Below, one piece after another: positions 9,822 through 27,050 of a DNA stretch of 37,342 nt. Origin of the DNA: an actinobacterium acAMD-2 (GTDB taxonomy: Bacteria > Actinomycetota > Actinomycetes > UBA12327); contig JNSE01000029.1 in assembly GCA_000754455.1 (NCBI GenBank), forward strand, positions 1 to 37,342. The letters run 5' to 3'. The notes beneath the pieces were generated by a model. That model did not search any database. It was not told where the DNA came from and worked only from the letters and a program-made list of their open reading frames with translations. The position numbers were made by a program, and so were the translations under genes. Positions within the stretch are counted from its first letter, which is position 1. Every line of letters starts with the position of its first letter.

Positions 9822-11465
9822 ATGAGTATTTTCGCGCGCCAACCCTTGGCTGGCCGCCTTCTAGCACCGGCACCAGGCTGGACCACGAGTGCGGATGTGG
9901 TAATCGTCGGTAGTGGCATCGCGGGTTTGAGTCTGGCCCTACAGGCCAGGCGAAGTGATCTCAAAGTTCTCGTGGTGACTAAGACCGTGCTCGATGCTGG
10001 AGCGACTCGATGGGCGCAAGGTGGCATCGCCGCCGCGGTCGGCCCAGGTGATACTCCCGAACAGCACGAATCAGACACCTTGATCGCCGGTGTCGACTTG
10101 TGCGATGTGCAGGCAGTGCATGCCTTGGTAACTGAGGGACCCACTGCGCTAGAAAATCTCATTGCGTTGGGTGCGGACTTTGATCGGGATGCTTCCGGTG
10201 ATATTGCGCTTACTCGTGAGGGTGGTCACCATCGCGATCGCATCGCACATGCTGGCGGAGATGCCACAGGTGCTGAGGTATCACGCGCGCTGATCTCCGC
10301 AGTTCAGGCCGATGTTGGCATTGAAGTGATTGAACATGCGTTGGCCCTGGACTTACTTTTTGATGATCGCCGAGCAGTAGCAGGAATCACGCTGCACGTG
10401 ATTGGTGAAGGAACCCGCGATGGAGTGGGAGCGGTACATGCGCGCGCAGTGGTCTTGGCCACTGGAGGACTGGGGCAAACCTTTGCTCAAACCACAAACC
10501 CTGAGGTATCAACCGGGGATGGGGTGGCCATAGCTCTGCGAGGCGGAGCAACAGTTGCTGACATGGAGTTTGTGCAGTTCCATCCCACTGTTTTATGGCT
10601 CGGCCCTGGCTCGCGAGGGCAGCAACCGTTGGTGTCAGAGGCCGTGCGGGGCGAAGGCGCCTTCCTGGTTGACGATGCAGGCCGACGTTTCATGCACGGT
10701 ATCCATGAAATGGCGGATCTAGCTCCGCGCGATGTGGTGGCCAAAGCCATCATGCAACAGATGATCGAAACCGGTGCTCCGCACGTATGGCTTGACGGTC
10801 GCGAATTGGGCCAAGAAGTATGGGAAAATAGATTCCCCACCATCCTTGAATCGTGCCGCTTGCACGGCGTTGATCCCGTGACGGAATTGATTCCCGTTGC
10901 ACCGGCAGCGCACTACGCCAGCGGTGGAATCCTTACTGATCTTTCCGGGCGAACCAATGTTGAGGGTTTGTATGCCTGCGGGGAGTGTGCATGTACTGGA
11001 GTGCATGGTGCGAACCGGTTGGCCTCAAACTCTTTGCTGGAAGGTTTGGTGTTTGCCTCTCGGATTGCTCAGCATTTGGCCACCGACCTAGCGAGCCCAG
11101 GCGAGCCGAAGCCCGATGAACGAGTCCCTGCCCTTTTGACGCCCGAAGTACGCGAGCACGTGGCCTCGACAATGACTGATGGCGCAGGAGTTTTGCGTTC
11201 ACGTCGATCATTAGGACGAACGTTGTCGCGCTTACTGGAGCTGCGGTCGTGGCAATCCCAGCAGCCCTGTGTTGAAGCGTGGGAAGCAACCAATGTGCAT
11301 AGCGTGGCGACGTTTATCGCAGCCGCTGCGCGCGAGCGGGAAGAAACACGAGGAAGTCACTGGCGCGAGGACTTCCCTGAGCCCGATGACCTGCATTGGC
11401 GGGCGCGCATTAATAGTCAGTTAGTCGAAGGCACCGTCCACACCACAGTGAGGCCTATTTCATGA
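9822..11465 (+). CDS. nadB: L-aspartate oxidase NadB
   Basis: FAD motif VVIVGSGIAGLSLAL, RWAQGGIAAAV, EFVQFHPTVL, YACGECACTGVHGANRLASNSLLEGLVF. Confidence 0.96.
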   Translation: MSIFARQPLAGRLLAPAPGWTTSADVVIVGSGIAGLSLALQARRSDLKVLVVTKTVLDAGATRWAQGGIAAAVGPGDTPEQHESDTLIAGVDLCDVQAVHALVTEGPTALENLIALGADFDRDASGDIALTREGGHHRDRIAHAGGDATGAEVSRALISAVQADVGIEVIEHALALDLLFDDRRAVAGITLHVIGEGTRDGVGAVHARAVVLATGGLGQTFAQTTNPEVSTGDGVAIALRGGATVADMEFVQFHPTVLWLGPGSRGQQPLVSEAVRGEGAFLVDDAGRRFMHGIHEMADLAPRDVVAKAIMQQMIETGAPHVWLDGRELGQEVWENRFPTILESCRLHGVDPVTELIPVAPAAHYASGGILTDLSGRTNVEGLYACGECACTGVHGANRLASNSLLEGLVFASRIAQHLATDLASPGEPKPDERVPALLTPEVREHVASTMTDGAGVLRSRRSLGRTLSRLLELRSWQSQQPCVEAWEATNVHSVATFIAAAAREREETRGSHWREDFPEPDDLHWRARINSQLVEGTVHTTVRPIS

Positions 11466-13141: not shown

Positions 13142-14656
13142 GTGAACCAAGGACCAGAAGTCTCCGATCTCGATGATCTTCCAGAGCAAATGCGCATTCG
13201 CCGCGAAAAGCTCGATCGATTGCGGGCGGAAGGCGTAGATCCCTACCCCGTTGGCTTTGCCCGCACGACCACCTTGGCTCAACTGCGCACCGATTTTCCT
13301 GATCTCGAACCCGACGCGTCCACCGGCGTAGAGGTGGGCATCGTGGGGCGCGTTATTTTGCGTCGCGACGGCGGCAAGTTGTGCTTTGCTACTTTGCGTG
13401 ATGGATCAGGTGACCTGCAAGTCATGTTGCCCATCGATACCGTGGGCGAAGACCGGCTCAAGGCGTGGAAGACCGACGTTGACATTGGTGACCACGTAGG
13501 CATCATCGGTGAAGTGGTCTGTAGTCGCCGTGGGGAACTTTCGGTCAAGGCCTCGAGCTGGATTATCACCAGTAAGTGTCTGCGTCCGCTGCCCGAGAAG
13601 TTCAAGGGTCTGACTGACCCTGAGGCGCGCGTGCGCCAGCGCTATGTCGACCTGATCGTTCGTCCAGAGGCTCGGGAAATGTTGCAGATGCGCGCAACCG
13701 CCGTGGCTTCCGTGCGCAACTCGCTCACCACACGTGGATTTGTTGAAGTCGAAACGCCGATGTTGCAGGCCATTCACGGTGGGGCCAATGCTCGACCCTT
13801 CACCACCCACATCAATGCCTACGACATGGAATTGTTTCTTCGCATTGCCCCAGAGCTGTATCTCAAGCGTTTGCTTGTCGGTGGAATCGAAAAAGTTTTT
13901 GAGATCAACCGCAACTTCCGCAACGAAGGCGCTGACTCTTCACACAATCCTGAGTTCACGATGCTGGAGATGTATCAGGCGTATGGTGACTACAACTCGA
14001 TGCGTGAGCTGACGCAACAGGTCATTCACGAAGCGGCACTTGCTGTGCACGGGGATCTCTTAGTGCGCCATCGCGATGACGAGGGCAACGTCAGCGAGTA
14101 CGACATCAGTGGTGATTGGCCGGTTATCCCGATCAATCGCGGCATCAGCGAGGCCTTAGGCGAAGAACTCACGGCAGACACAGAGGCTGACCAACTGCGC
14201 ACGTGGTGTGCCAGTGCAGATATCGCGCTGGATCCAGCCTGGGGCCGCGGTCAGATCGTCCTGGAAATGTACGAACACCTGCTCGAGTCACGTACGACAG
14301 CTCCGACCTTCTATACGGATTTCCCCACCGAGGTGTCACCACTTACGCGTCAACACCGTGAAGACCCGAGGTTGGCTGAGCGTTGGGATTTGGTGGCCTT
14401 CGGATCAGAAGTAGGTACTGCCTATAGCGAATTGGTTGATCCCGTTGAGCAACGTGCTCGCCTAACCGCACAATCTTTGTTGGCTACGGGGGGCGATGTT
14501 GAGGCCATGGCTTTGGACGAGGACTTCCTGCGCGCGTTGGAATTTGCGATGCCGCCAGCTGGAGGCCAAGGAATGGGAATTGACCGACTCTTGATGATGC
14601 TGACCGGACGCAGTATTCGTGAAACCGTGTTGTTCCCCCTGGTCCGGCCCGAATGA
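13142..14656 (+). CDS. lysS: Lysyl-tRNA synthetase (class II)
   Basis: RQRYVDLIV, FVEVETPMLQAIHGGANARPF, FEINRNFRNEGADSSHNPEFTMLE, GIDRLLMMLTG. Confidence 0.97.
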   Translation: MNQGPEVSDLDDLPEQMRIRREKLDRLRAEGVDPYPVGFARTTTLAQLRTDFPDLEPDASTGVEVGIVGRVILRRDGGKLCFATLRDGSGDLQVMLPIDTVGEDRLKAWKTDVDIGDHVGIIGEVVCSRRGELSVKASSWIITSKCLRPLPEKFKGLTDPEARVRQRYVDLIVRPEAREMLQMRATAVASVRNSLTTRGFVEVETPMLQAIHGGANARPFTTHINAYDMELFLRIAPELYLKRLLVGGIEKVFEINRNFRNEGADSSHNPEFTMLEMYQAYGDYNSMRELTQQVIHEAALAVHGDLLVRHRDDEGNVSEYDISGDWPVIPINRGISEALGEELTADTEADQLRTWCASADIALDPAWGRGQIVLEMYEHLLESRTTAPTFYTDFPTEVSPLTRQHREDPRLAERWDLVAFGSEVGTAYSELVDPVEQRARLTAQSLLATGGDVEAMALDEDFLRALEFAMPPAGGQGMGIDRLLMMLTGRSIRETVLFPLVRPE

Positions 14657-15153
14657 GCCAAGTACTCGTTCGTCGCGCTCGGACTGCTGATGTTTCAGCC
14701 ATCGCTGCTCTCGTTGATCGCTACAGCACCGATCGAATCTTGTTGGCGAAGGCCAAGGTGACCCTGTATGAAGACGTACAGGAATTTTGGGTGGCTGAGG
14801 TTGACGGAAATATCGTGGGGTGCGGTGCGCTGCACGTTTTGTGGGATGACTTGGCTGAGATTAGAACGCTGGCTGTTGATGTCGCCATGCGTGGAACCGG
14901 CGTCGGTCGTGAACTCCTCGAACAACTAGCCAATGTCGCTCGTGAATTGGGTGTGCGGCGCTTGTTCTGCCTGACTTTTGAAGTCGATTTCTTCAAGCGC
15001 AATGGTTTTGATGTCATTGAGGGTGCGCCCGTAGAAGAGGATGTCTTTCAAGAACTCTTGCTCTCCTATGACGAAGGTGTGGCCGAGTTCTTGGACCTGG
15101 AGCGCGTTAAGCCCAACACGCTGGGTAACACGCGCATGCTGAGGCACCTGTAA
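14653..15153 (+). CDS. GNAT N-acetyltransferase, actinobacterial ArgA-like amino-acid N-acetyltransferase
   Basis: VRRARTADVSAIAALVDRY and MRGTGVGRELLEQL acetyl-CoA motif; ATGA overlap with lysS. Confidence 0.8.
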   Translation: MSQVLVRRARTADVSAIAALVDRYSTDRILLAKAKVTLYEDVQEFWVAEVDGNIVGCGALHVLWDDLAEIRTLAVDVAMRGTGVGRELLEQLANVARELGVRRLFCLTFEVDFFKRNGFDVIEGAPVEEDVFQELLLSYDEGVAEFLDLERVKPNTLGNTRMLRHL

Positions 15154-15176: not shown

Positions 15177-15227
15177 ATGAGCGAAACCAGTGCTGAGGAG
15201 AATCTGATTTGGCCGCCCCCGGTGTGA
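15177..15227 (+). other. Possible leaderless upstream ORF (MSETSAEENLIWPPPV*) overlapping the start of the Stealth gene
   Basis: ATG 5 nt after TAAACT (15166-15171); 16 codons ending in PPPV-stop; overlaps the TTG at 15209 in another frame. Confidence 0.3.
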
Positions 15228-16833
15228 CGATAAAGAAGCAGCTTCTCAAGCTGTCGAATTATGTCCCCACCTGGGTTGAAGGGCTGGGTCGCAATCCTCG
15301 AGGAGTGGTTTTTGCGCCGGGCGCCAAAACCTCATTCTTTTTGCACCCTCGGGCATCACGCCGGCCATTACTCGTAGGCCGTGGTCACGGTCGCTACTTC
15401 GTCGGCACAGTGACGGACCACCTCGGTTCTCAGCAGGCCATTCAAGCCAACCTCGATGGCGTGGTTGATGTACTCAAGAACGCCGGAATTGAACATTTCG
15501 TCTATGGGACCGCTGCCGGCCAGCACCCCGTCGTGGGTTGTTTGGCGAAAGATCGTGTGGCAGTGGTCTCGGAACTTGTTAAGACCCATGGGCATAGTGG
15601 CGCGTACGTCGCGGTAGTTAGCGGCACCGGAATTCGCGCTCGTCGCTACCTCAAGCGTTCGGCTCCTTCGGTGCTGACCAAAGCATCGGTCCTGCGATTC
15701 TTTAAACCACAGGTCAGCCCGACCGGGATCCTGCTCAGCGATGATCGCGCGGGATGTGACATTGAATTTTGGCGTTCCAGCGCCGGCGTGTGGACCTCTC
15801 CGGTAGCCAATCCCTATGCCACGCAATTGAGTGAAGGCGATCGTCAACGAGCGGACGTCCACATAGGTACGGGCACTTATGACAGTTATTCGGCCTTTGT
15901 CCAACCAGATCCGTTTGCTACTAACTACCCCATTGACGTGGTGTACACGTGGGTTGATGGCAATGATCCAGCGTGGCAATCGCGAAAGCGAGGAGCGTTA
16001 GGCCAGAACGAAGGTACCGAGCTCAATCCGCTGGCTGCCAATGAATCCCGATTCTCTTCGCGCGATGAACTGAAGATTGGGTTCGCCACATCTATCTAGT
16101 GACGGACGATCAGGTTCCGGATTGGCTCGATACGTCGAGTGGTCGAATCACGGTCGTGAGTCACAAGGAGCTCTTCCCGGACAGTTCGGCCCTGCCCACC
16201 TTCAATTCGCATGCCATCGAAACCGTCCTGCATCGCATCCCTGGACTTTCCGAGCATTTCCTGTACATGAACGACGATGTCTTCATCGGAAGGCCCATCG
16301 CTCCAGACCTATTCTTCTCCAGTGTTGGAGGCCCTAAGTTTTTTCGCAGTACTGCACTTTTTGGCGCAGGGCCTCGCACGGTGGACGATGCTCCTGTTGA
16401 TGCGGCGGGCAAGAACAACCGTGACCTGTTAGCCGAGGAATTTGGCGTTGCAGTGACGAATAAGTTCAAGCACACACCGCACGCGCTGCGCAAGAGTGTG
16501 ATTGAGCAAGTCGAGAAGCGATGGAGCGCGGAGGTGGAGCGCACGCGAGTGTCATCGTTCCGCGACCCAGACGACATCGCGATCATTTCGTTGTCGCACT
16601 ACTTCGGATTTTTCACCGAGCAGGCCACGGCAGGAAACATCCGGTACGAATACGTCAATATCGCACTGGCCAACGTTCGTCAGCGCTACCGAAAACTGTT
16701 GACTCAGGATTCCTGGGATGCCTTCTGCCTCAATGACACTGACAATGAGGGCGTGGACATGGTGCGCCAAGAACGCTTACTCAGCGATTTTCTTCAGGCG
16801 TACTTTCCAGTGAAGAGTCCGTTCGAAAAGTAG
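15209..16833 (+). pseudogene. Stealth-family capsular/exopolysaccharide phosphotransferase, disrupted (ORFs 15209-16099 and 16099-16833)
   Basis: CR1 IDVVYTWVDGNDPAW in the first frame. CR2 remainder EDWVRHIYLVTDDQVPDWL and LPTFNSHAIETVLHRIPGLSEHFLYMNDDVF in a different frame. The frames meet at 16070-16080, where the expected YSLRS...YA segment is missing. Confidence 0.75.
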
Positions 16834-16845
16834 TGCGAACGAGCT

Positions 16846-17712
16846 CTAGATAATCGGCGGACGACGAAGTGCCGTCATCGCCCAAACGGTTTTCCATTTC
16901 ATCGGCCTGCGCGGCCCCGCATCAGTGCGCAATCCCTCGCGAAGACCGGCAAACCATTGCCTAAACGACGACCCCAGCCCCAGGCGGGCCATGGTGATTA
17001 CTGTCCACACTGCCAGGTGGATCACTGCAAGTAGGAGGGGGAGATTGCGCTTGACTAACCACGCCCGATTACGTGCATTCAGTCGCAAGTAATCGGCATG
17101 GCGTGACGGGCTAGCAGCGGGGTGAAACATCGAGCAGTCGCTGTCGTAGGCAATCCGCCAGCCGGCGTCCATCAAACGCCACGCCAGATCAGATTCCTCA
17201 TGACCGTAGAAGAAATCACCAGGAAACCCACCGACATTTTTGACAGCACTCGATCTGATGGCGCATGCGCCACCAAGAAAAGCGGTCACATCGGATGAGA
17301 TCAACGGATCGCTCTTTCCCAGTCGCGGCACATGGCGTTGTTCGGTAGCCAAAGTGTCGGGATCAAGGATGCGAAATGAGATAACTGCTAAATCCGGCTC
17401 AAGGGCAAAGCGCGATCGCACATGATCGGCCACCGTGTTGTCGCAGTACCAGCCGTCATCATCGAGGAACAAGATGGCATCTGACTCGGTGTGTTCGATG
17501 CCGACATTGCGGCCCTCGGGAATTCCTACATTTTCGGGAAGCGCCATGGTGCGCACGTTTGAGCGAGGAGAATCGATGGGCGTGCCATTACCGATGAGCA
17601 GTACATCGATGGGGTCACCGGTTTGATTCAGTGCACTGTCAATGGCCCGCTCAAGTTCGGCAGGACGAGTACCCATCGTCAATACGACGCAGGAAAGTCT
17701 GAAGGAACTCAT
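16846..17712 (-). CDS. Glycosyltransferase family 2 (rhamnosyltransferase-like)
   Basis: SCVVLTMGTRPAELERAIDSALNQ, AILFLDDDGWY, GGFPGDFFYGHEESDLAWR; probable start at ATG 17712. Confidence 0.88.
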   Translation of the reverse strand: MSSFRLSCVVLTMGTRPAELERAIDSALNQTGDPIDVLLIGNGTPIDSPRSNVRTMALPENVGIPEGRNVGIEHTESDAILFLDDDGWYCDNTVADHVRSRFALEPDLAVISFRILDPDTLATEQRHVPRLGKSDPLISSDVTAFLGGACAIRSSAVKNVGGFPGDFFYGHEESDLAWRLMDAGWRIAYDSDCSMFHPAASPSRHADYLRLNARNRAWLVKRNLPLLLAVIHLAVWTVITMARLGLGSSFRQWFAGLREGLRTDAGPRRPMKWKTVWAMTALRRPPII

Positions 17713-18436
17713 CGCAGTCTTTGAGAAGACAAGATGGAAACACGGTGATGGCAGCGGTGGCGGTAAAGGATCCGGTGGCGGCATCAACGATTGCTGCACC
17801 CACGATGATCAAGGAAGCTTCCACAGCGCCCAGGATCTTGTGGTATCCCAGCATGGACGCAAACTTTCGCGCGGTGCTGAGAGCGCTAGAGCGAGGGACA
17901 AGGTCGGCGTCGGTCATCGCCGGCAAACCTGACGCAGCACGAGCCGACAAGACGAGGTCAGTTTCGGATTTGATCAGGACCACGCCCAATGCTGCTAAAA
18001 CTCCGATGGTGGCGAAGGTTTGCCCAGACTCGGCGGCAGCGCGGAATCCAAGGCCGACCATCAGAGCGGCCTCAGTGAGGTAGTGGCCGACGCGGTCGAG
18101 ATAAACACCGGTAGGTGAGGTGCGCTTGGTCCAGCGAGCGACTTCGCCGTCGCAGCAGTCCAAGAGCAAGTACAACTGAATGAGAACGACAGCCACGATT
18201 GGGCCGGCAACACCGGGTATGAGCAGTGCGGGAGCTGCTCCGATGCCACAAGCGATCATTAACCAGGTGATCTGGTTAGGTGACCAGCCGAGCGCAAGAA
18301 AAACGCGGGTGAGGTAGAGCGAAATCCGACGCATATACAACCGACCAGCCCAGTGCTCGCCGTTTCGACGATCCATGGTTGACGCTGGCTGGCACACCTG
18401 GCGCAATTCCTCAATGGAAGGCTTGGACAAACTCAC
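17651..18436 (-). CDS. CDP-alcohol phosphatidyltransferase family protein (variant motif)
   Basis: LDCCDGEVARWTKRTSPTGVYLDRVGH matches D-x2-DG-x2-AR-x8-G-x3-D-x3-(D), with H at the last position; multiple TM segments. Confidence 0.85.
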   Translation of the reverse strand: MSLSKPSIEELRQVCQPASTMDRRNGEHWAGRLYMRRISLYLTRVFLALGWSPNQITWLMIACGIGAAPALLIPGVAGPIVAVVLIQLYLLLDCCDGEVARWTKRTSPTGVYLDRVGHYLTEAALMVGLGFRAAAESGQTFATIGVLAALGVVLIKSETDLVLSARAASGLPAMTDADLVPRSSALSTARKFASMLGYHKILGAVEASLIIVGAAIVDAATGSFTATAAITVFPSCLLKDCDEFLQTFLRRIDDGYSSCRT

Positions 18437-19469
18437 GCACCTTCTCTCCGATTGCTTCGTGTGACAGGTCTAGGTGTTCCAGGATGGTGTAGCGCCCAGG
18501 TCGTGTAGATGGAGCATGCACAACCGCTGCGATGAACTCGTCAGTAGTCAACCCTAGGTCCTCAGGGAGCACTGGCATCGCATGCTGGCGCAAAGCGCGT
18601 GCGAGATGTTGCGCGGTGGGTTGATCACCTCGCAGGAATGAGGCGAAAACCGCACCAACGCCGACTTGAAAACCGTGGGGCTTGGATTTTTCGGGAAACA
18701 GTTGATCAATGGCGTGCGAGATCTCGTGACATGCGCCCGAACAAGGACGGCTGCTGCCACACATCGTCATGGCGATGCCGGAAAGTACGAGGGATTCGGC
18801 TAAGGCGATGAGAAAATCGTCATCCTGCACGGCTCCGGGGTGGAAGAGCATCGTGTCGGCCGCCGTCCGGGCCAGAGCGACGGCAACACCATCAACCGTT
18901 TCGCCGGTAGCCTCATGCGCCAACTCCCAGTCCGCAATCGCGGAGATATTGCTCAAGATGTCACCAATGCCCGCAGAGAGCATGGCTGGTGGAGTGGATT
19001 TCAAAAGATCGAGATCGACGATGACTGCAACGGGCGGAGTTACACCAACAGAGGTGCGACCGGTTTGTGCATCAAGGATGGAAACAGGTGATGCCAATCC
19101 ATCGTGAGCGAGGTTGGTAGCGATAGCGATTGACGGCCACTGGTTAGCAGCAGCTACAAATTTGGCGATGTCAAGGATGCGACCACCACCCACACCAATG
19201 ACCAGATCAAACCCGGTGGTGCGAAGTTCAGTTGCAAGAATTTGCGCGGCCTCTTCGGTGCCATTTTCAGCAGTCACCCACGTCGCATCGGGCACCAGTT
19301 CACGCAACTGTGCTGTGACTTCCTGGCTGGAATTTTTACCGGCGATAACGACAATTCGCGAACCTGGGCACAGTGCAGGATCAGCGAGGATGTCAGAGAG
19401 AGTGTTCAGGGTGCCGTGACCAATGTTGACCACGGAGGGAGCCGCGACCAGTCGGCTCAGCTCCGGCAT
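18411..19469 (-). CDS. Iron-containing alcohol dehydrogenase / sn-glycerol-1-phosphate dehydrogenase (AraM/EgsA)-like
   Basis: VIGVGGGRILDIAKF, AGIGDILSNISAIADWELAHE, GSSRPCSGACHEISHAI, KPHGFQVGVG (metal-ligand D/H/H positions present). Confidence 0.82.
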   Translation of the reverse strand: MPELSRLVAAPSVVNIGHGTLNTLSDILADPALCPGSRIVVIAGKNSSQEVTAQLRELVPDATWVTAENGTEEAAQILATELRTTGFDLVIGVGGGRILDIAKFVAAANQWPSIAIATNLAHDGLASPVSILDAQTGRTSVGVTPPVAVIVDLDLLKSTPPAMLSAGIGDILSNISAIADWELAHEATGETVDGVAVALARTAADTMLFHPGAVQDDDFLIALAESLVLSGIAMTMCGSSRPCSGACHEISHAIDQLFPEKSKPHGFQVGVGAVFASFLRGDQPTAQHLARALRQHAMPVLPEDLGLTTDEFIAAVVHAPSTRPGRYTILEHLDLSHEAIGEKVREFVQAFH

Positions 19470-20188
19470 GCGATGTCCTTTGCTCGTTCAAGATCCTCGA
19501 GGTTGTCCACTTCGATCCAGTCAACCGTACCGATGGGCGTCAAAGCCACCTGGTGACCTCGATTGACCAGTTCTTGGTAGGCGTCCTCGTAGTAGAGGTT
19601 GGGATCGCGAGTAAAGGTTGCTTCCAAAGCATCACTGAGGGCAGCACCGAAGTTCGGTCCGACGAGAGTGACTCCGATGTACTCACCAACTGCGCTGGTC
19701 GGTTCCATCAACTTCGTGATCCGAGAAAGCCACCCAGATGCATCGGTTTGAACTTTCATTTCCTCGTCAGCGAGAACTTTCACATTGTCAATGGCCAAGC
19801 GAAGGTCGTGCGGTTCCTGAGCGAGCAGGGTTTGTTCCACACTCACCGGGTGCAAGGTGTCTCCGTTAGCCAGGAGAAATCCCGAATCGAAGTAAGACCG
19901 AGCGCACCACAATGAGTACGCGTTGTTCCAGACCTCGGCTTTGTCGTTAAATACGACATCAATGGTCAGGCCGTACGTGGTTTCAAATTCGATGCGTCGA
20001 TCGTCGATGGCTTCTTTGCGGTAGCCCGCGACGATGACTGCTTCTTTGATGCCGACTTCGGCAAAGTTGCCCAACGTGCGTTCAAGAATGGTGGTTCCAT
20101 CACCGAGCGGCGCCAAGGCCTTAGGAATGTTGTCTGTGACTGGGCGGAGCCGACTCCCAGAGCCCGCAGCAAGGATCATGCCGATCAT
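19457..20188 (-). CDS. Sugar/alcohol-phosphate nucleotidyltransferase (probable cytidylyltransferase)
   Basis: MIGMILAAGSGSRLRPVTDNIPKAL signature, NGDTLH, YYEDAYQELVNRG; start at ATG 20188. Confidence 0.85.
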   Translation of the reverse strand: MIGMILAAGSGSRLRPVTDNIPKALAPLGDGTTILERTLGNFAEVGIKEAVIVAGYRKEAIDDRRIEFETTYGLTIDVVFNDKAEVWNNAYSLWCARSYFDSGFLLANGDTLHPVSVEQTLLAQEPHDLRLAIDNVKVLADEEMKVQTDASGWLSRITKLMEPTSAVGEYIGVTLVGPNFGAALSDALEATFTRDPNLYYEDAYQELVNRGHQVALTPIGTVDWIEVDNLEDLERAKDIACRS

Positions 20189-20198
20189 GGGTGTGCCC

Positions 20199-20945
20199 TT
20201 ATCCGCGGGGGGCGTCAGAGTCAGCGTGGTAGGCCGCCAACGCTTCTTCGAGTGGGGCATCCAGCTTGAGGTCACCCTTATTCATGTACAGGCCACGGTT
20301 GCAAAAACGTCGCAGGTCTCCATCGCTGTGAGAAACCATGAACAACGTGCGACCTTCACTGAGCATGGAGTCCAGTTTCTTGTAGCACTTTTCGCGGAAA
20401 CGACGGTCACCAACAGCGAGGACCTCATCGACCAACATGATGGGTTCGTCTAGTTGGCTAATGACGGCAAAGCCAAGCCGAACCTTCATACCGCTAGAGA
20501 AGTGGCGAAACGGTGTGTCAACGAAGTCTTCGATTTCTGCAAAGTCCACGATTTCGTCAAAGCGATCTTGAATGCTCTTTTTACTCAGACCGTGCAAGCC
20601 CGCAGTGATTTGGATGTTGTCTCGAGCTGTCAGGTCAGCGACGAATCCTCCGGTGAGTTCAATCAGCGGTGCCACACCACCATTGACGGTGACCTTGCCA
20701 TTGTCGGGAAGCAGCACGCCGGCGACGAGTTTGAGCAGCGTGCTCTTGCCCGAACCATTAGCCCCGATCAGTCCTACTGCTTCTCCGGGTTGGATCTCAA
20801 AGTTCACGTTATTGACCGCCCAGAAATCGCCAGGAGGTGTGCCAGTCTTTCCCTTGAAGAGGGTTTCGCGCACCTGACGGTGACGACGACGATTGCGGTG
20901 GAACCGGATTCCTAAGTTTTCTGCGGAGATGACGGGTTCAGACAT
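20199..20945 (-). CDS. ABC transporter ATP-binding protein, Wzt/TagH-type polysaccharide export
   Basis: Walker A GLIGANGSGKSTLLKL, HFSSGMKVRLGFAV, MLVDEVLAVGDRRFREKC (Wzt/TagH signature). Confidence 0.92.
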   Translation of the reverse strand: MSEPVISAENLGIRFHRNRRRHRQVRETLFKGKTGTPPGDFWAVNNVNFEIQPGEAVGLIGANGSGKSTLLKLVAGVLLPDNGKVTVNGGVAPLIELTGGFVADLTARDNIQITAGLHGLSKKSIQDRFDEIVDFAEIEDFVDTPFRHFSSGMKVRLGFAVISQLDEPIMLVDEVLAVGDRRFREKCYKKLDSMLSEGRTLFMVSHSDGDLRRFCNRGLYMNKGDLKLDAPLEEALAAYHADSDAPRG

Positions 20946-21731
20946 CTAGATCTCCTTCAAGGCTGCACGCTCAAGGGAGCGGAAGACGAAAATACCGAGA
21001 GTAAAGACGACCAAGGTAATGACGGAAGCGGTGATGAACGGACCCCAGCTAGTGAATTGATCCGGAAAGAAGCTTGCACGAATCAGGTCAATGATTCCGC
21101 TGAAGGGATTCAACGAGTACAAGGTGCGGAACTTTTCGGGAACATCGGTGATGCCATAGATGATGGGCGAGAGGTAGAACATGATGCGAAGGATGATGCG
21201 TACCAAACGTTGCATGTCAGTGAACAAGACGGTGAGCGGAGCCAGGATGAGACCCAGGCCAATCAAGAGCAGCCCTTGAACCAGTAGGGCAAGGGGGAGC
21301 AACAGCAGGTACCACGAAACCTTGGCGCCCGCGAAGATGGCGAAAGCTGCGATGACGGGGAGGCTGAACAAGAACTCCATGAACTTCGAAAACACCACCC
21401 GCAAAACCCATACTTCGCGGGGAATATTGCTGGAGCGAACAAGTTTTGCTTCGGCGGTCAGAGCCCGTGTGCATTCCTGAATCGAACTGGTGGCCCAGGT
21501 CCAGGGCAGCAGGCCGGCCAGTAAGAACACGATGTAGGGAGATTCGCCGACCCCGGCCCGGACAAAAATGACGGTAAAGACGAACCAATAGACCAACGCT
21601 GACAACAGCGGGTCAAGGATTGTCCAGAGGTAACCCAGCACTGAGGTGCTATAGCGAACCCGCAGGTCGCGATTGACGAGAAGGGCGATCATTCCGCGTG
21701 ATCGCCACAGCGCCACCCAGCGCGAAGACAC
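20946..21731 (-). CDS. ABC transporter permease, Wzm/TagG-type polysaccharide export
   Basis: RDLRVRYSTSVLGYLWTILDPLLSALVYWFVF, six hydrophobic segments; stop abuts the start of the ATPase gene. GTG at 21731 is preceded by AGGAGG; the ORF extends to 21809. Confidence 0.9.
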   Translation of the reverse strand: MSSRWVALWRSRGMIALLVNRDLRVRYSTSVLGYLWTILDPLLSALVYWFVFTVIFVRAGVGESPYIVFLLAGLLPWTWATSSIQECTRALTAEAKLVRSSNIPREVWVLRVVFSKFMEFLFSLPVIAAFAIFAGAKVSWYLLLLPLALLVQGLLLIGLGLILAPLTVLFTDMQRLVRIILRIMFYLSPIIYGITDVPEKFRTLYSLNPFSGIIDLIRASFFPDQFTSWGPFITASVITLVVFTLGIFVFRSLERAALKEI

Positions 21732-21870
21732 CGTGGAAGCCCTCCTCACCATGGGAAAACAGGCCTGATTTTTGCCCTTGTGAACGGTAGCACCCACGCC
21801 TGCCGGCACCCACGCTCGTGTAGAGATGTCGCGGGAGTCTTGGGTCTCACTGCCCTATCAACAGGGGGGT

Positions 21871-22662
21871 CTACTCCGGGTCGCGCGAACCTAATGCCAG
21901 GTCGGTCGACCGAGTTGCTGCGAAGACCCGCACTCCAACGGCAATCTCCGTCATCAGGATGAGGACAGCGCCTGCCAACGTGATGAATTGAACGCCCCAA
22001 CCCCAGCCAGCTTGAAGCAACGGGGCAATGACAAAAACGCTCATCTGATACTCAATGCCGCTAAAAAGGTGGAGCCGGATGCGGTACTTGGCAAGCGTGG
22101 TCTTCAAGCTAGGAGAGGCGGAGGAAGTCCGCTTAGGGCTTTCGGTTGAACCACGGTTCGCATCCAGGGCCGCTGACATGGCTTGCGTTAGTTGTTTGGC
22201 CTGGGCAGCGTTGAGATAGCGAACGAAGTTCAAGGTCAGAAAGACAAACCCCAGATACAGGTATGCGTTGTTGTCGGTGGCATGAAATAAACCGCCGAAC
22301 AACCCAATCGTGCAGGCGATGTCCTTGGTGCGGTCAAGAAAGAAATCCACCCACGTGCCCAAGAAGCTTTGCTGAGATTTCAGTCGAGCGAGTTTGCCGT
22401 CCATGCAGTCGAAAATAAAAGAGAGGTGAAAGGCGATAGCTCCCCAGACAAGGTAGATGGGGGTGGCTTGCCAAAAACATAGCGCGGCAACCAGGCCAGC
22501 GATGGCGGCGATGAAAGTTAAGTGGATAGGCCGTAGCGACGTGCGGTTGGCGATAGGCAGCAGCAATCGGCCAGCGATTGGATCAATAATCAGGACGGTC
22601 CACCAAGCATCCCGTGGCTTATAGGTGGCTTTGATGTCGTCCAAGGTGTACTGGCGGCGCAT
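21871..22662 (-). CDS. CDP-alcohol phosphatidyltransferase family protein (canonical motif)
   Basis: FDCMDGKLARLKSQQSFLGTWVDFFLD fits D-x2-DG-x2-AR-x8-G-x3-D-x3-D completely; multiple TM segments. Confidence 0.88.
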   Translation of the reverse strand: MRRQYTLDDIKATYKPRDAWWTVLIIDPIAGRLLLPIANRTSLRPIHLTFIAAIAGLVAALCFWQATPIYLVWGAIAFHLSFIFDCMDGKLARLKSQQSFLGTWVDFFLDRTKDIACTIGLFGGLFHATDNNAYLYLGFVFLTLNFVRYLNAAQAKQLTQAMSAALDANRGSTESPKRTSSASPSLKTTLAKYRIRLHLFSGIEYQMSVFVIAPLLQAGWGWGVQFITLAGAVLILMTEIAVGVRVFAATRSTDLALGSRDPE

Positions 22663-22808
22663 GGTTGTGCCTCCGGTGTGACGCGCACTGAATAGGAGTT
22701 GTCAGCGTACCGGCTGGCCTAAGCAGACGGTTCGGAACTTCGGTGGGTGATCGCGTGGCGTGATGGGATTCTTCCGGTTTTCGCTCCGTCAGTCGTAATA
22801 CTGTGCGC

Positions 22809-23600
22809 ATGACTGAAGCCACCCTCACGCCAATGACTGAACCCGACAACGCGGCCCGCTACCGTCGCCTTCGAATCTTCAACATCCTTGTAGGTCTGGC
22901 CTTTGTGGCCCAGATTGCCGTCATCCTTAAACTCAGTAAGCCATTGAGCATTCCGTTGGTTCTGGGATACCTCAATCGGGACCCGCTGATCAATCCCAAC
23001 GTTATTGCCAAGCCGGTCGAAGTCATTTCCATCGGAATCGCCAGTTCAGTGGCGATTTTCCTGGCTTGTGCCGCCCTAGACCACTTATTGGTGGCTTTCC
23101 CCCTGCGGTCTTGGTACGAGCGCCAGCTCGGGCGTCGCGCCAATTATGCGCGATGGATTGAGTACACGTTCAGCTCTTCACTCATGGTCGTCTTAATCGT
23201 TGTTGTCGTCGGGATTCGAGACCTAGGCGCGATCATTGCGATCATTTCGACAAATAGCGCGATGATCTTGTTTGGCCTATTGATGGAACGAAAGGAAACA
23301 CCAGGAAAAGCTGACTGGAGTGCATTCTGGTTTAGCTCTGCGGTGAGTTTGGCGCCGTGGATCATCATCTCCTTGTTCCTCACGAAGGCCAGTCCGCCGG
23401 CTTTCGTCTTCATCATTGTGATTCTTCAGTTCATCCTGTTCTTCTCGTTTGCCGCCAACATGGGTCTGCAGTACAAGCAGGTGGGCAAGTGGAAGGACTA
23501 CGTCTACGGCGAGTACGCGTACATCATTTTGAGCATCGTGGCCAAGTCGCTCTTGGCTTGGTTGATTTTCGCCAACGTGCTGCGTCCTGCTGGCAGTTAA
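22809..23600 (+). CDS. Heliorhodopsin
   Basis: Seven hydrophobic segments. RWIEYTFSSSLMVVLI (counterion Glu), NSAMILFGLLMERK, DWSAFWF, PPAFVFII, YAYIILSIVAKSLLAW (retinal Lys) are heliorhodopsin-family signatures. The ORF opens at GTG 22803; ATG 22809 is preferred. Confidence 0.93.
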   Translation: MTEATLTPMTEPDNAARYRRLRIFNILVGLAFVAQIAVILKLSKPLSIPLVLGYLNRDPLINPNVIAKPVEVISIGIASSVAIFLACAALDHLLVAFPLRSWYERQLGRRANYARWIEYTFSSSLMVVLIVVVVGIRDLGAIIAIISTNSAMILFGLLMERKETPGKADWSAFWFSSAVSLAPWIIISLFLTKASPPAFVFIIVILQFILFFSFAANMGLQYKQVGKWKDYVYGEYAYIILSIVAKSLLAWLIFANVLRPAGS

Positions 23601-23623: not shown

Positions 23624-23637
23624 GTTCGCGCAGGGCG
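23624..23637 (+). promoter_or_regulatory. Candidate ClgR operator upstream of clpC
   Basis: GTTCGC-GCAGG-GCG matches the actinobacterial ClgR consensus GTTCGC-N5-GCG; about 128 bp upstream of the clpC ATG. Confidence 0.55.
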
Positions 23638-23764: not shown

Positions 23765-26272
23765 ATGTTCGAGAGGTTTACCGACCGGGCCCGCCGTGTG
23801 GTGGTTTTGGCACAAGAAGAAGCCCGCATGCTCAACCACAACTACATCGGGACCGAGCACATCCTCCTGGGTCTGATTCATGAAGGCGAAGGCGTTGCCG
23901 CCAAGTCGCTGGAGTCATTGGGCATTTCTCTTGAGGCTGTGCGCAGCCAAGTTGAAGAGATCATTGGTCAAGGCCAACAAGCTCCCAGCGGACACATCCC
24001 CTTTACTCCGCGTGCGAAGAAAGTTCTTGAGCTGTCGTTGCGTGAAGCCTTGCAACTTGGCCACAACTACATCGGCACCGAACACATCCTCTTGGGATTG
24101 ATTCGTGAAGGCGATGGAGTAGCAGCACAGGTGCTGGTCAAGCTCGGCGCAGACCTGAACCGCGTCCGCCAACAAGTCATTCAGTTGCTGTCGGGGTACC
24201 AAGGCAAGGAACCAGCCGCCTCTGGTGGCCCAGCCGAAGGCACACCTTCTACCTCGCTGGTCTTGGACCAGTTTGGACGCAACCTCACCCAAGCTGCCCG
24301 CGAAGGCAAGCTGGACCCGGTTATTGGGCGCGAAAAGGAAATCGAGCGCGTCATGCAGGTGCTCTCACGCCGCACCAAGAACAACCCCGTCCTCATTGGT
24401 GAGCCCGGCGTCGGCAAGACCGCCGTCGTTGAAGGGCTAGCTCAGGCCATCGTTAAGGGCGAAGTACCCGAGACATTGAAGGACAAGCACCTCTACACGT
24501 TGGACCTTGGTGCTCTGGTGGCGGGTAGCCGTTACCGCGGAGACTTCGAAGAGCGCCTGAAGAAGGTGCTCAAGGAAATTCGAACTCGCGGAGACATCAT
24601 TTTGTTCATCGATGAACTGCACACCCTCGTGGGTGCCGGCGCGGCGGAAGGCGCGATCGATGCAGCGTCCATTCTCAAGCCCATGTTGGCTCGTGGTGAG
24701 TTGCAGACCATCGGTGCCACCACGCTGGATGAATACCGCAAGCACTTGGAAAAGGACGCCGCTCTTGAACGACGTTTCCAGCCCATCCAGGTACAAGAGC
24801 CTTCGTTGGCGCACACCATCGAAATCTTGAAGGGCCTGCGCGACCGCTACGAGGCCCACCATCGCGTATCAATCACCGACGAGGCCTTGGTCTCGGCTGC
24901 CACCTTGGCTGATCGCTACATTTCTGATCGCTTCTTGCCAGACAAGGCGATTGACCTCATTGACGAGGCTGGCTCGCGCATGCGTATTCGTCGCATGACC
25001 GCACCGCCGGACTTGCGTGAGTTTGACGAGCGGATCGCGAACGTGCGCCGTGAAAAGGAATCAGCGATCGATGCCCAAGACTTTGAAAAGGCTGCCGCAC
25101 TGCGCGACACCGAAAAAAACTTGTTGCTCGAAAAGGCCGAGCGTGAGCGTGAATGGAAGGCCGGCGACATGGACGTCGCTGCTGTTGTGGATGAGGAACT
25201 GATCGCTGAAGTGTTGGCCATCGCGACCGGCATCCCAGTCTTCAAGCTCACCGAAGAAGAATCCCAACGTCTGCTGCAGATGGAAGGCGAACTCCACAAG
25301 CGCGTCATTGGCCAAGAGCAAGCCATCAAGGCGTTGTCTCAAGCCATCCGCCGTACTCGTGCTGGCTTGAAGGACCCCAAGCGTCCAGGCGGATCGTTCA
25401 TCTTCGCCGGTCCATCGGGTGTGGGTAAGACCGAACTCGCCAAGACCTTGGCTGAGTTCCTCTTTGGCGACGAAGACTCCTTGATTCAGCTCGACATGTC
25501 CGAATTCAGCGAGAAGCACACGGTTTCGCGTCTCTTCGGATCGCCTCCCGGCTACGTCGGTTACGACGAGGGTGGCCAGTTGACCGAGAAGGTCCGTCGC
25601 AAGCCGTTCTCTGTGGTCTTGTTTGACGAGGTGGAGAAGGCGCACCCGGATATCTTCAACTCGCTGTTGCAAATCCTTGAAGACGGGCGCTTGACCGACA
25701 GTCAAGGTCGAGTTGTTGACTTCAAGAACACCGTCATCATCATGACGACCAACTTGGGTACGCGTGATATTTCCAAGGGCTTTGGAATGGGCTTTGCCGC
25801 TTCTGGCGACACCCAGTCGTCCTACGACCGATTGAAGTCCAAGGTCAACGAGGAGCTCAAGCAGCACTTCCGTCCTGAGTTCCTTAACCGCATTGACGAC
25901 ACCGTCGTCTTCCACCAGTTGAGTGAAGCCGAAATCGTTCAGATCGTTGATCTGATGATCGCCAAGCTTGATGCCCGCATGCAAGATAAGGACATGGCCA
26001 TCGACCTCACCTTCGATGCCAAGGCGCGGTTGGCCGCACGTGGCTATGACCCGGTCTTGGGTGCTCGTCCGCTACGTCGCACGATTCAACGCGATATCGA
26101 GGATGAACTTTCCGAAAAGATCTTGTTCGGTGAGCTTCGCCCCGGTCAGATTGTGTTGGTTGACGTTGCGGGTGAGGGCGAGGATGCCCACTTCACCTTT
26201 ACCGGCACCACAAAGGGCGAAATGCCAGACCTGCCACCGGTTGAAACCGCAGAAAGCGGTTCCTCGGAGTAG
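23765..26272 (+). CDS. clpC: ATP-dependent Clp protease ATP-binding subunit ClpC
   Basis: [38 protein letters not shown]-domain, two AAA+ modules ([18 protein letters not shown]), UVR-like middle domain; SD AGGAGG. Confidence 0.97.
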
Positions 26273-26303: not shown

Positions 26304-27050
26304 ATGAGCGAACCAGATTTTGAGTCAAAGGTGGCGATAGTCACCGGAGGCGGATCGGGTATCGGCGCGGCCTGCGTGCAACTTCTTGTTGAACGCGGGG
26401 CCAAGGTGTTAGTCGCGGACGTGGATCCGGTGGCGGCGGAAAAGGTGGCAAGCCAGTTCCTGGAATCGGCGCGACCTTTCGCGGTCGATGTCAGTGACTC
26501 GCAACGTTGCGAACTGATGGTGCAGCGCGCCATCGATACGTGGGGCGGCTTGCATATCGCCGTGAACAACGCCGGAATTGGTGGAGAACAAAACCCCATC
26601 GGCAGTTATAGCGTTGAAGGTTGGCGCTCGGTGTTGTCGGTCAATCTTGATGGTGTCTTCTATAGCATGCGTGCTGAAATCCCAGCCATGATCGAATCCG
26701 GCGGTGGCTCGATCATCAATATGTCGTCGATCTTGGGCTCGGTGGGATTTCCAGCAGCCGGCGCGTACGTTTCAGCGAAACATGGCGTTGTCGGTCTCAC
26801 CCGGGCGGCAGCTCTCGATCATGCGGCGCAATCCATCCGCGTTAATGCAGTCGGACCTGGATTTATCGATACGCCCTTGCTTAGCCAGTTGTCACCGGAG
26901 ATGAAGGCTGGCTTGAGCAGGATGCATCCGCGTGGGCAGATGGGAAGTTCACGTGAAGTCGCTGAGCTTGTAGCGTTTTTGGCTAGTGATCGCGCGGCCA
27001 ATATCACTGGTTCGTACTACACCGTTGATGGTGGGTACACCGCGCAGTAG
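26304..27050 (+). CDS. SDR family NAD(P)-dependent oxidoreductase
   Basis: VTGGGSGIGAA, NNAGIG, Y-x3-K in GAYVSAKHG; SD CTAGGAGGTTGAC. Confidence 0.92.
   Translation: MSEPDFESKVAIVTGGGSGIGAACVQLLVERGAKVLVADVDPVAAEKVASQFLESARPFAVDVSDSQRCELMVQRAIDTWGGLHIAVNNAGIGGEQNPIGSYSVEGWRSVLSVNLDGVFYSMRAEIPAMIESGGGSIINMSSILGSVGFPAAGAYVSAKHGVVGLTRAAALDHAAQSIRVNAVGPGFIDTPLLSQLSPEMKAGLSRMHPRGQMGSSREVAELVAFLASDRAANITGSYYTVDGGYTAQ

Follow-up and report, generated by a model that had tools for sequence, protein, structure and literature searches.

A heliorhodopsin gene without the His23 and Ser76 residues, and its constant neighbour clpC, in an actinobacterial family

Heliorhodopsins (HeRs) are light-absorbing membrane proteins whose function is unsettled and disputed. 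A gene apparently encoding one lies between a cluster of surface-polymer genes and clpC in the 37,342-nucleotide stretch of DNA analysed here (the window), which raises the question of whether the protein is a genuine heliorhodopsin and whether either neighbour reveals what it does. The window is contig 29 of a 0.97-Mb assembly (G000), estimated 60% complete and searched family by family, and the window gene is the sole heliorhodopsin in G000. The relatives used for comparison were G001 and G003 (same genus as the window), G005 (sister genus) and the congeners G002 and G004; the host family is probably an uncultivated, freshwater actinobacterial one.

The open reading frame extends over 22803-23600 on the plus strand, as first annotated, and the start was revised: the GTG at 22803 is an upstream alternative that would add two residues (265 aa), and it was rejected in favour of the ATG at 22809, from whose methionine the four closest relatives align. 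The gene thus spans 22809-23600 (+) and encodes 263 amino acids. The protein matches the Pfam family Heliorhodopsin (PF18761) over profile positions 1-242 of 242 (E 7.5e-75, 251.8 bits vs a cut-off of 26.7) and the NCBIfam HeR equivalog NF038020 with 244.7 bits vs a cut-off of 100. In the Pfam search PF18761 was the sole family listed, with no match to Bac_rhodopsin, and this comparison of the two models, proposed in the first-pass annotation, was decided by the full-length Heliorhodopsin match. A phmmer search of the PDB matched the window protein to heliorhodopsins only. An AlphaFold2 model built from an alignment of 25 relatives (mean pLDDT 89.9, pTM 0.86) contains seven long helices, and its best fold matches in the PDB (7u55, 6is6, 6uh3, and 6su3) are all heliorhodopsins with TM 0.85-0.87; heliorhodopsins filled the ten top places (E 1.6e-17 to 2.8e-15), and type-1 rhodopsins came next, with E near 1e-4. 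The Lys/Arg count (12 vs 7, with 4-residue margins) leans towards an N-in orientation and the fold resembles N-in structures. The dN/dS of the gene was 0.056 vs G001, 0.125 vs G003 and 0.138 vs G005 (dS being near saturation for G003 and G005), evidencing purifying selection, and these values (0.06-0.14) together with the E-values exclude a chance origin of the match. Altogether, PF18761, NF038020 and the predicted fold bear out the original identification: the window gene is an intact, genuine heliorhodopsin, ordinary by kind and unusual in its substitutions.

The motifs RWIEY, NSAMILFG and SIVAKSLLAW and the two key codons were found exactly where they had been placed. By alignment to 48C12 and TaHeR, the Glu codon at 23160-23162 (+) specifies the Schiff-base counter-ion (window E118, 48C12 E107), invariant in the 68 heliorhodopsins compared and accompanied in TM3 by the preceding Arg (R115 and E118 for 48C12 R104 and E107), and the Lys codon at 23544-23546 (+) specifies the site of retinal attachment (window K246, 48C12 K241), within a TM7 SxxxK motif in which S242/K246 correspond to S237/K241. 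In 48C12 numbering, the protein also keeps N16, Q26, H80 (the second histidine, window H92), Y92, Y108, M115, N138, E149, E230 and W246. Five positions are substituted: H23 to F (codon 22902-22904, +, a natural H23F), S76 to A (codon 23070-23072, +), N207 to F, Q213 to M and Q247 to L. His23, His80 and Ser76 are the positions debated as proton acceptor, and His80 alone remains of this 48C12-like relay. In 48C12 a hydrogen-bond chain His80-His23-Gln26-Trp246 leads to the outer surface and another, His80-Asn16-Tyr92-Glu230-Arg104, leads to Glu149 at the inner surface; the H23F mutation strongly slows the photocycle, with the M state still formed (PMC9726877). When these published chains are read against the window residues, the inner chain is intact and the outer chain is broken: Ser76 and His23, which lead from the Schiff base out to Trp246 on the extracellular side, are both lost, and the cytoplasmic network (N16, Y92, R104, E149, and E230) is complete.

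In the set of 68 heliorhodopsins, a mostly actinobacterial and hence biased sample, position 23 is His in 46, Leu in 19 and Phe in 3, these last being the window protein and its two congeners. Eight others carry Leu at both positions 23 and 80, indicating that His23 is not generally required for function. A maximum-likelihood tree of 39 heliorhodopsins groups the window family with proteins of Micromonosporaceae, Acidimicrobiia and Nitriliruptoraceae (99/97), whereas the 48C12-like HeRs from other actinobacteria of fresh water, for example those in the f25 genomes (each a single contig of 1.2-1.4 Mb), branch elsewhere. S76A and Q247L occur in every full-length member of the window's subclade, and loss of His23 is limited to 13 rows nested within it (87/85, a grouping without firm support), a distribution that suggests one loss event. 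Judged by tree and alignment, the new element is a distinct HeR subclade without Ser76, in which a nested group is also without His23; a literature search on HeR H23 and subfamilies found nothing. Its treatment as a new kind within the HeR family was rejected because it is set apart by sequence and not by a demonstrated function, and because both histidines are missing in some other HeRs. The subclade constitutes a natural mutant series at His23, His80 and Ser76, by which the need for His23 in signalling becomes directly testable.

Some features of other loci were recorded along the way. In Verrucosispora sioxanthis (L059:9082-10783) the gene that immediately precedes HeR, on the same strand and about 100 bases away, encodes a type-1 rhodopsin (PF01036). 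In three Micromonospora species (L062:9326-10750, L063:9350-10756, and L069:9328-10714) the gene directly upstream of HeR encodes a pentapeptide-repeat (MfpA/Qnr-like) protein, and a pentapeptide-repeat gene also lies just upstream of the type-1 rhodopsin gene of the congener G004 (L093:346-1964). The HeR of Acidimicrobiia FR_3 (L068:10007-10782) is split into two overlapping frames by a frameshift near 10600, either a sequencing error or a pseudogene.

It is reasonably probable that the window HeR functions as a slow sensor or switch for light and not as an ion pump, with a cytoplasmic output to a partner protein. Light would isomerise the retinal and the Schiff-base proton would then pass to Glu/His80; without His23 the cycle would be slow, an extrapolation based on one point mutant of a protein with about 37% identity, and the Trp switch on the extracellular side would be weakly coupled, leaving the conformational signal to reach mainly the cytoplasmic face, where it would alter the activity of the partner. 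Precedents are available in which a HeR is a light-dependent modulator of glutamine synthetase (PMC9529153), of an ABC exporter (PMC11109279) and, as outlined in a further report, of photolyase (PMC9769723), and genomic surveys tie HeRs to signalling and redox genes (PMC8612252). Against this reading, the only gene never separated from HeR is clpC, and that gene has a regulatory box of its own. The HeR gene would probably be expressed from its own promoter and clpC probably from its own ClgR-controlled promoter, the surface-polymer cluster would be unrelated cargo, and retinal would be supplied by an unknown oxygenase or from outside, since neither a Blh/Brp nor an RPE65-type gene was found in the family. 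It was also considered, with little confidence, that a rewired Schiff-base relay (S76A, Q247L and a replaced Asn207, then loss of His23) may have produced a very slow, cytoplasm-facing light memory switch with ArgA or ClpC as partner; if true, either partnership would be a regulatory link not described before.

These two partner candidates are defined by a fixed gene order in a small-genome lineage. In G001, G003 and G005, lysS, argA, HeR and clpC follow one another on one strand. In the window, lysS (13142-14656, +; lysyl-tRNA synthetase by sequence and place) comes first in this order, followed by an argA-type N-acetylglutamate synthase gene of the GNAT type (14653-15153, +) and, downstream of HeR, by clpC (23765-26272, +; Pfam Clp_N, AAA, AAA_2, ClpB_D2-small, and UVR), argA and clpC being assigned also by synteny. 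HeR and clpC are adjacent in the four family genomes with the locus assembled, belonging to two genera, with a gap of about 140-165 nt, and from this shared gene order the adjacency is judged to be old and evolutionarily stable. G002 and G004 gave no HeR match, and absence of the gene was rejected because contig ends flank the locus on both sides: one G002 contig ends inside an ABC ATPase gene and the next begins at codon 56 of clpC, and one G004 contig ends 39 bases after argA and the next begins at codon 496 of clpC. On the other side of clpC, a short-chain dehydrogenase gene (26304-27050) separates it from mutY in the window and in G002 and is absent in G001 and G004.

Among possible partners, ArgA is the most interesting candidate owing to the glutamine synthetase precedent, which also comes from a freshwater actinobacterium (AbHeR-GS; PMC9529153): HeR would bind ArgA and alter its N-acetylglutamate synthase activity in the light, providing a control of nitrogen or arginine metabolism. 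ArgA is identified by its matches to NF005921 (273.6 bits vs a cut-off of 180) and PDB 5yge/5yo2 (amino-acid acetyltransferase, E 4e-58), and argA is the next gene 5' of HeR in relatives without an insertion; in G001 and G005 the two genes share a strand and lie about 40-80 nt apart. However, the two genes are separated by 7.6 kb in the window and by an amidase gene in G003, and HeR apparently has its own leaderless start. Moreover, argA is outside the ten published HeR neighbour groups (PMC11109279), and searches around more distant HeRs did not find it: no clpC, lysS or argA was detected at loci L032-L048 and L058-L069 (1-10 kb per side) or within about 1.5 kb at L106-L134. A contig scan by two short peptide patterns gave only 15 loci, and in high-GC sister genomes the genes flanking HeR were called roughly, by a home-made GC3 score. 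No paper on a HeR-argA link was found in the literature search. With insertions in two of the four genomes and an apparent separate promoter, the ArgA reading is speculative and considered unlikely.

Blh/Brp-like genes (PF15461) were found in none of the genomes G000-G005, the same search being positive in four other genomes, and RPE65-type genes in none of these six, the search being positive in two control genomes. The earlier observation that the window holds no retinal-forming genes is therefore correct and extends, for Blh and RPE65-type oxygenases, to the six family genomes. Type-1 rhodopsin (PF01036) was likewise not found in G000, with the same search positive in six other genomes. The negative oxygenase searches, which covered one genome estimated 100% complete (G003), would fit an apoprotein that carries no chromophore in the native cell and has a light-independent role. 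This is improbable considering that the retinal-binding residues are strictly kept under purifying selection, that G001 and G004 also encode type-1 rhodopsin, and that G003 has the beta-carotene genes crtE, crtI, crtB and two lycopene-cyclase-domain genes, one of which scores just under the curated cut-off. In addition, an actinobacterium without any known retinal genes makes retinal and has a functional rhodopsin (PMC7734400), so a missing Blh does not imply a blind protein. The family, having HeR and type-1 rhodopsin and no known retinal-forming genes, probably also uses the actinobacterial route to retinal that is yet to be discovered.

The 164-bp gap from the HeR stop to clpC contains a ClgR-type box (23624-23637, +; GTTCGCGCAGGGCG). 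GTTCGC-5N-GCG is the ClgR recognition motif in Streptomyces, where ClgR affects clpC expression (PMC9775585). G001 and G005 carry an exact copy of the box and G003 a copy with one mismatch; the window contains one match to the pattern, as many as chance predicts for 37 kb, and the box counts only because of its place in the HeR-clpC gap and its recurrence in these three genomes. A Shine-Dalgarno-like sequence also precedes clpC in the intergenic region. Upstream of HeR, a possible -10 element, AATACT (22797-22802, +), stands six bases before the ATG at 22809, and a hexamer xATA(C/A)T was aligned by eye 6-7 bases before the HeR start in four of four genomes (in G005 counted from an ATG that lies three codons further upstream). 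The scan before HeR detected no sigma-70 consensus pair, and the sigma-70 and terminator scans were not above shuffles. HeR may possibly be expressed from its own leaderless promoter, and the signals on both sides suggest that HeR and clpC are separate transcription units; given the ClgR-type box in the gap and the putative leaderless promoter ahead of HeR, co-transcription is not indicated.

It was considered less probable still that HeR controls proteostasis in response to light by acting on ClpC itself or on the expression of its gene. HeR is immediately upstream of clpC in all four assembled loci and in two genera, which makes clpC its most constant neighbour. Nevertheless, clpC has its own box and Shine-Dalgarno-like sequence in the gap, ClpC is a general, cytosolic protein, clpC adjoins no other HeR examined, no paper joining heliorhodopsin and clpC was found in the literature search, and gene order over short distances can simply be retained through inertia where genomes are small. 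The clpC adjacency as a functional pointer, as originally suggested, is only partly supported: the adjacency itself was upheld in four of four loci, but the ClgR-type box in the gap argues for separate transcription, and the more distant HeRs examined included no HeR-clpC pair.

A role in proton transport, as a transporter or channel activated by light in the manner of the viral V2HeR3, is about equally improbable. As outlined in one report, a viral HeR conducts protons (PMC9448325), and the proton-relay path of the window protein is altered; however, the loss of His23 and Ser76 takes away relay groups and adds no path, and a survey stated that no ion pumping by a HeR had been demonstrated at that time (PMC8612252).

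The other neighbour, the accessory surface-polymer cluster between argA and HeR (15209-22662), lies outside the heliorhodopsin unit and encodes a Stealth phosphotransferase, a glycosyltransferase, two CDP-alcohol phosphatidyltransferases, an Fe-ADH, a nucleotidyltransferase and an ABC-2 transporter. In G002 the same cluster follows argA up to the contig end, in G001 and G005 no gene lies between argA and HeR, and in G003 the gap holds instead a gene for N-acetylmuramoyl-L-alanine amidase (L029:17739-18506). G004 is probably without the cluster at this site, as judged by the 39 nt after argA, which resemble the argA-HeR gap of G001. Comparison of these sites indicates that the cluster is an accessory insertion and that its adjacency to HeR is incidental; being accessory and missing at the site in other relatives, it provides no evidence for envelope control. 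The neighbourhood survey in related genomes thus found clpC constant and the envelope-polymer cluster not. Control of this operon by HeR, to which the first-pass annotation had pointed, could invoke a divergent neighbour in the window genome and a short intergenic region able to hold divergent promoters, but it is largely refuted and very improbable, since the cluster is at the site only in the window and G002, the G004 flank is without it, and G001, G003 and G005 keep HeR without it there.

The argA-HeR gap, with an amidase gene in G003 and the polymer cluster in the window, is possibly an insertion hot spot. Within the cluster, the Stealth-type gene (15209-16833) consists of two overlapping frames, disrupted near 16075 by the loss of about 30 bases compared with L101, through assembly error or decay; in G002 it is an intact ORF of 551 aa (L101:3841-5496, minus strand). 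The genes for CDP-alcohol phosphatidyltransferase and glycosyltransferase share about 150 bases (17651-17799); compared with G002, in which the gene ends are clean, the window has a short deletion near 17745 that causes this overlap.

Among known systems, AbHeR of Actinobacteria bacterium IMCC26103 resembles the window HeR in being a freshwater actinobacterial HeR near a nitrogen-metabolism gene, but its partner glnA is in one operon with it, whereas the gene in the window lineage is argA, separated in two of the four genomes and a candidate partner. With 48C12, from a freshwater actinobacterial fosmid (PDB 6su3 and 6uh3), the window protein shares the fold (TM 0.86-0.87), the retinal Lys, the Glu counter-ion, Ser237, Arg104, the cytoplasmic network and Met115; unlike 48C12, to which it is 36-38% identical over the structural alignment, it is without His23 (Phe), Ser76 (Ala), Asn207 (Phe), Gln213 (Met) and Gln247 (Leu). 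TaHeR of Thermoplasmatales (PDB 6is6 and 7u55) is the best PDB sequence match (38-40% identical) and is alike in fold, Lys, Glu and the Met at position 213, but it retains His23, Ser76, Asn207 and Gln247. The HeRs of Micromonosporaceae and Acidimicrobiia (L058-L067 and L106) differ from the window protein in having Leu rather than Phe at position 23, Glu at 26, other neighbouring genes and, in Micromonosporaceae, Ala at 207; they are 52-56% identical to it, belong to the same subclade (99/97) and share S76A and Q247L, most of them being also without His23.
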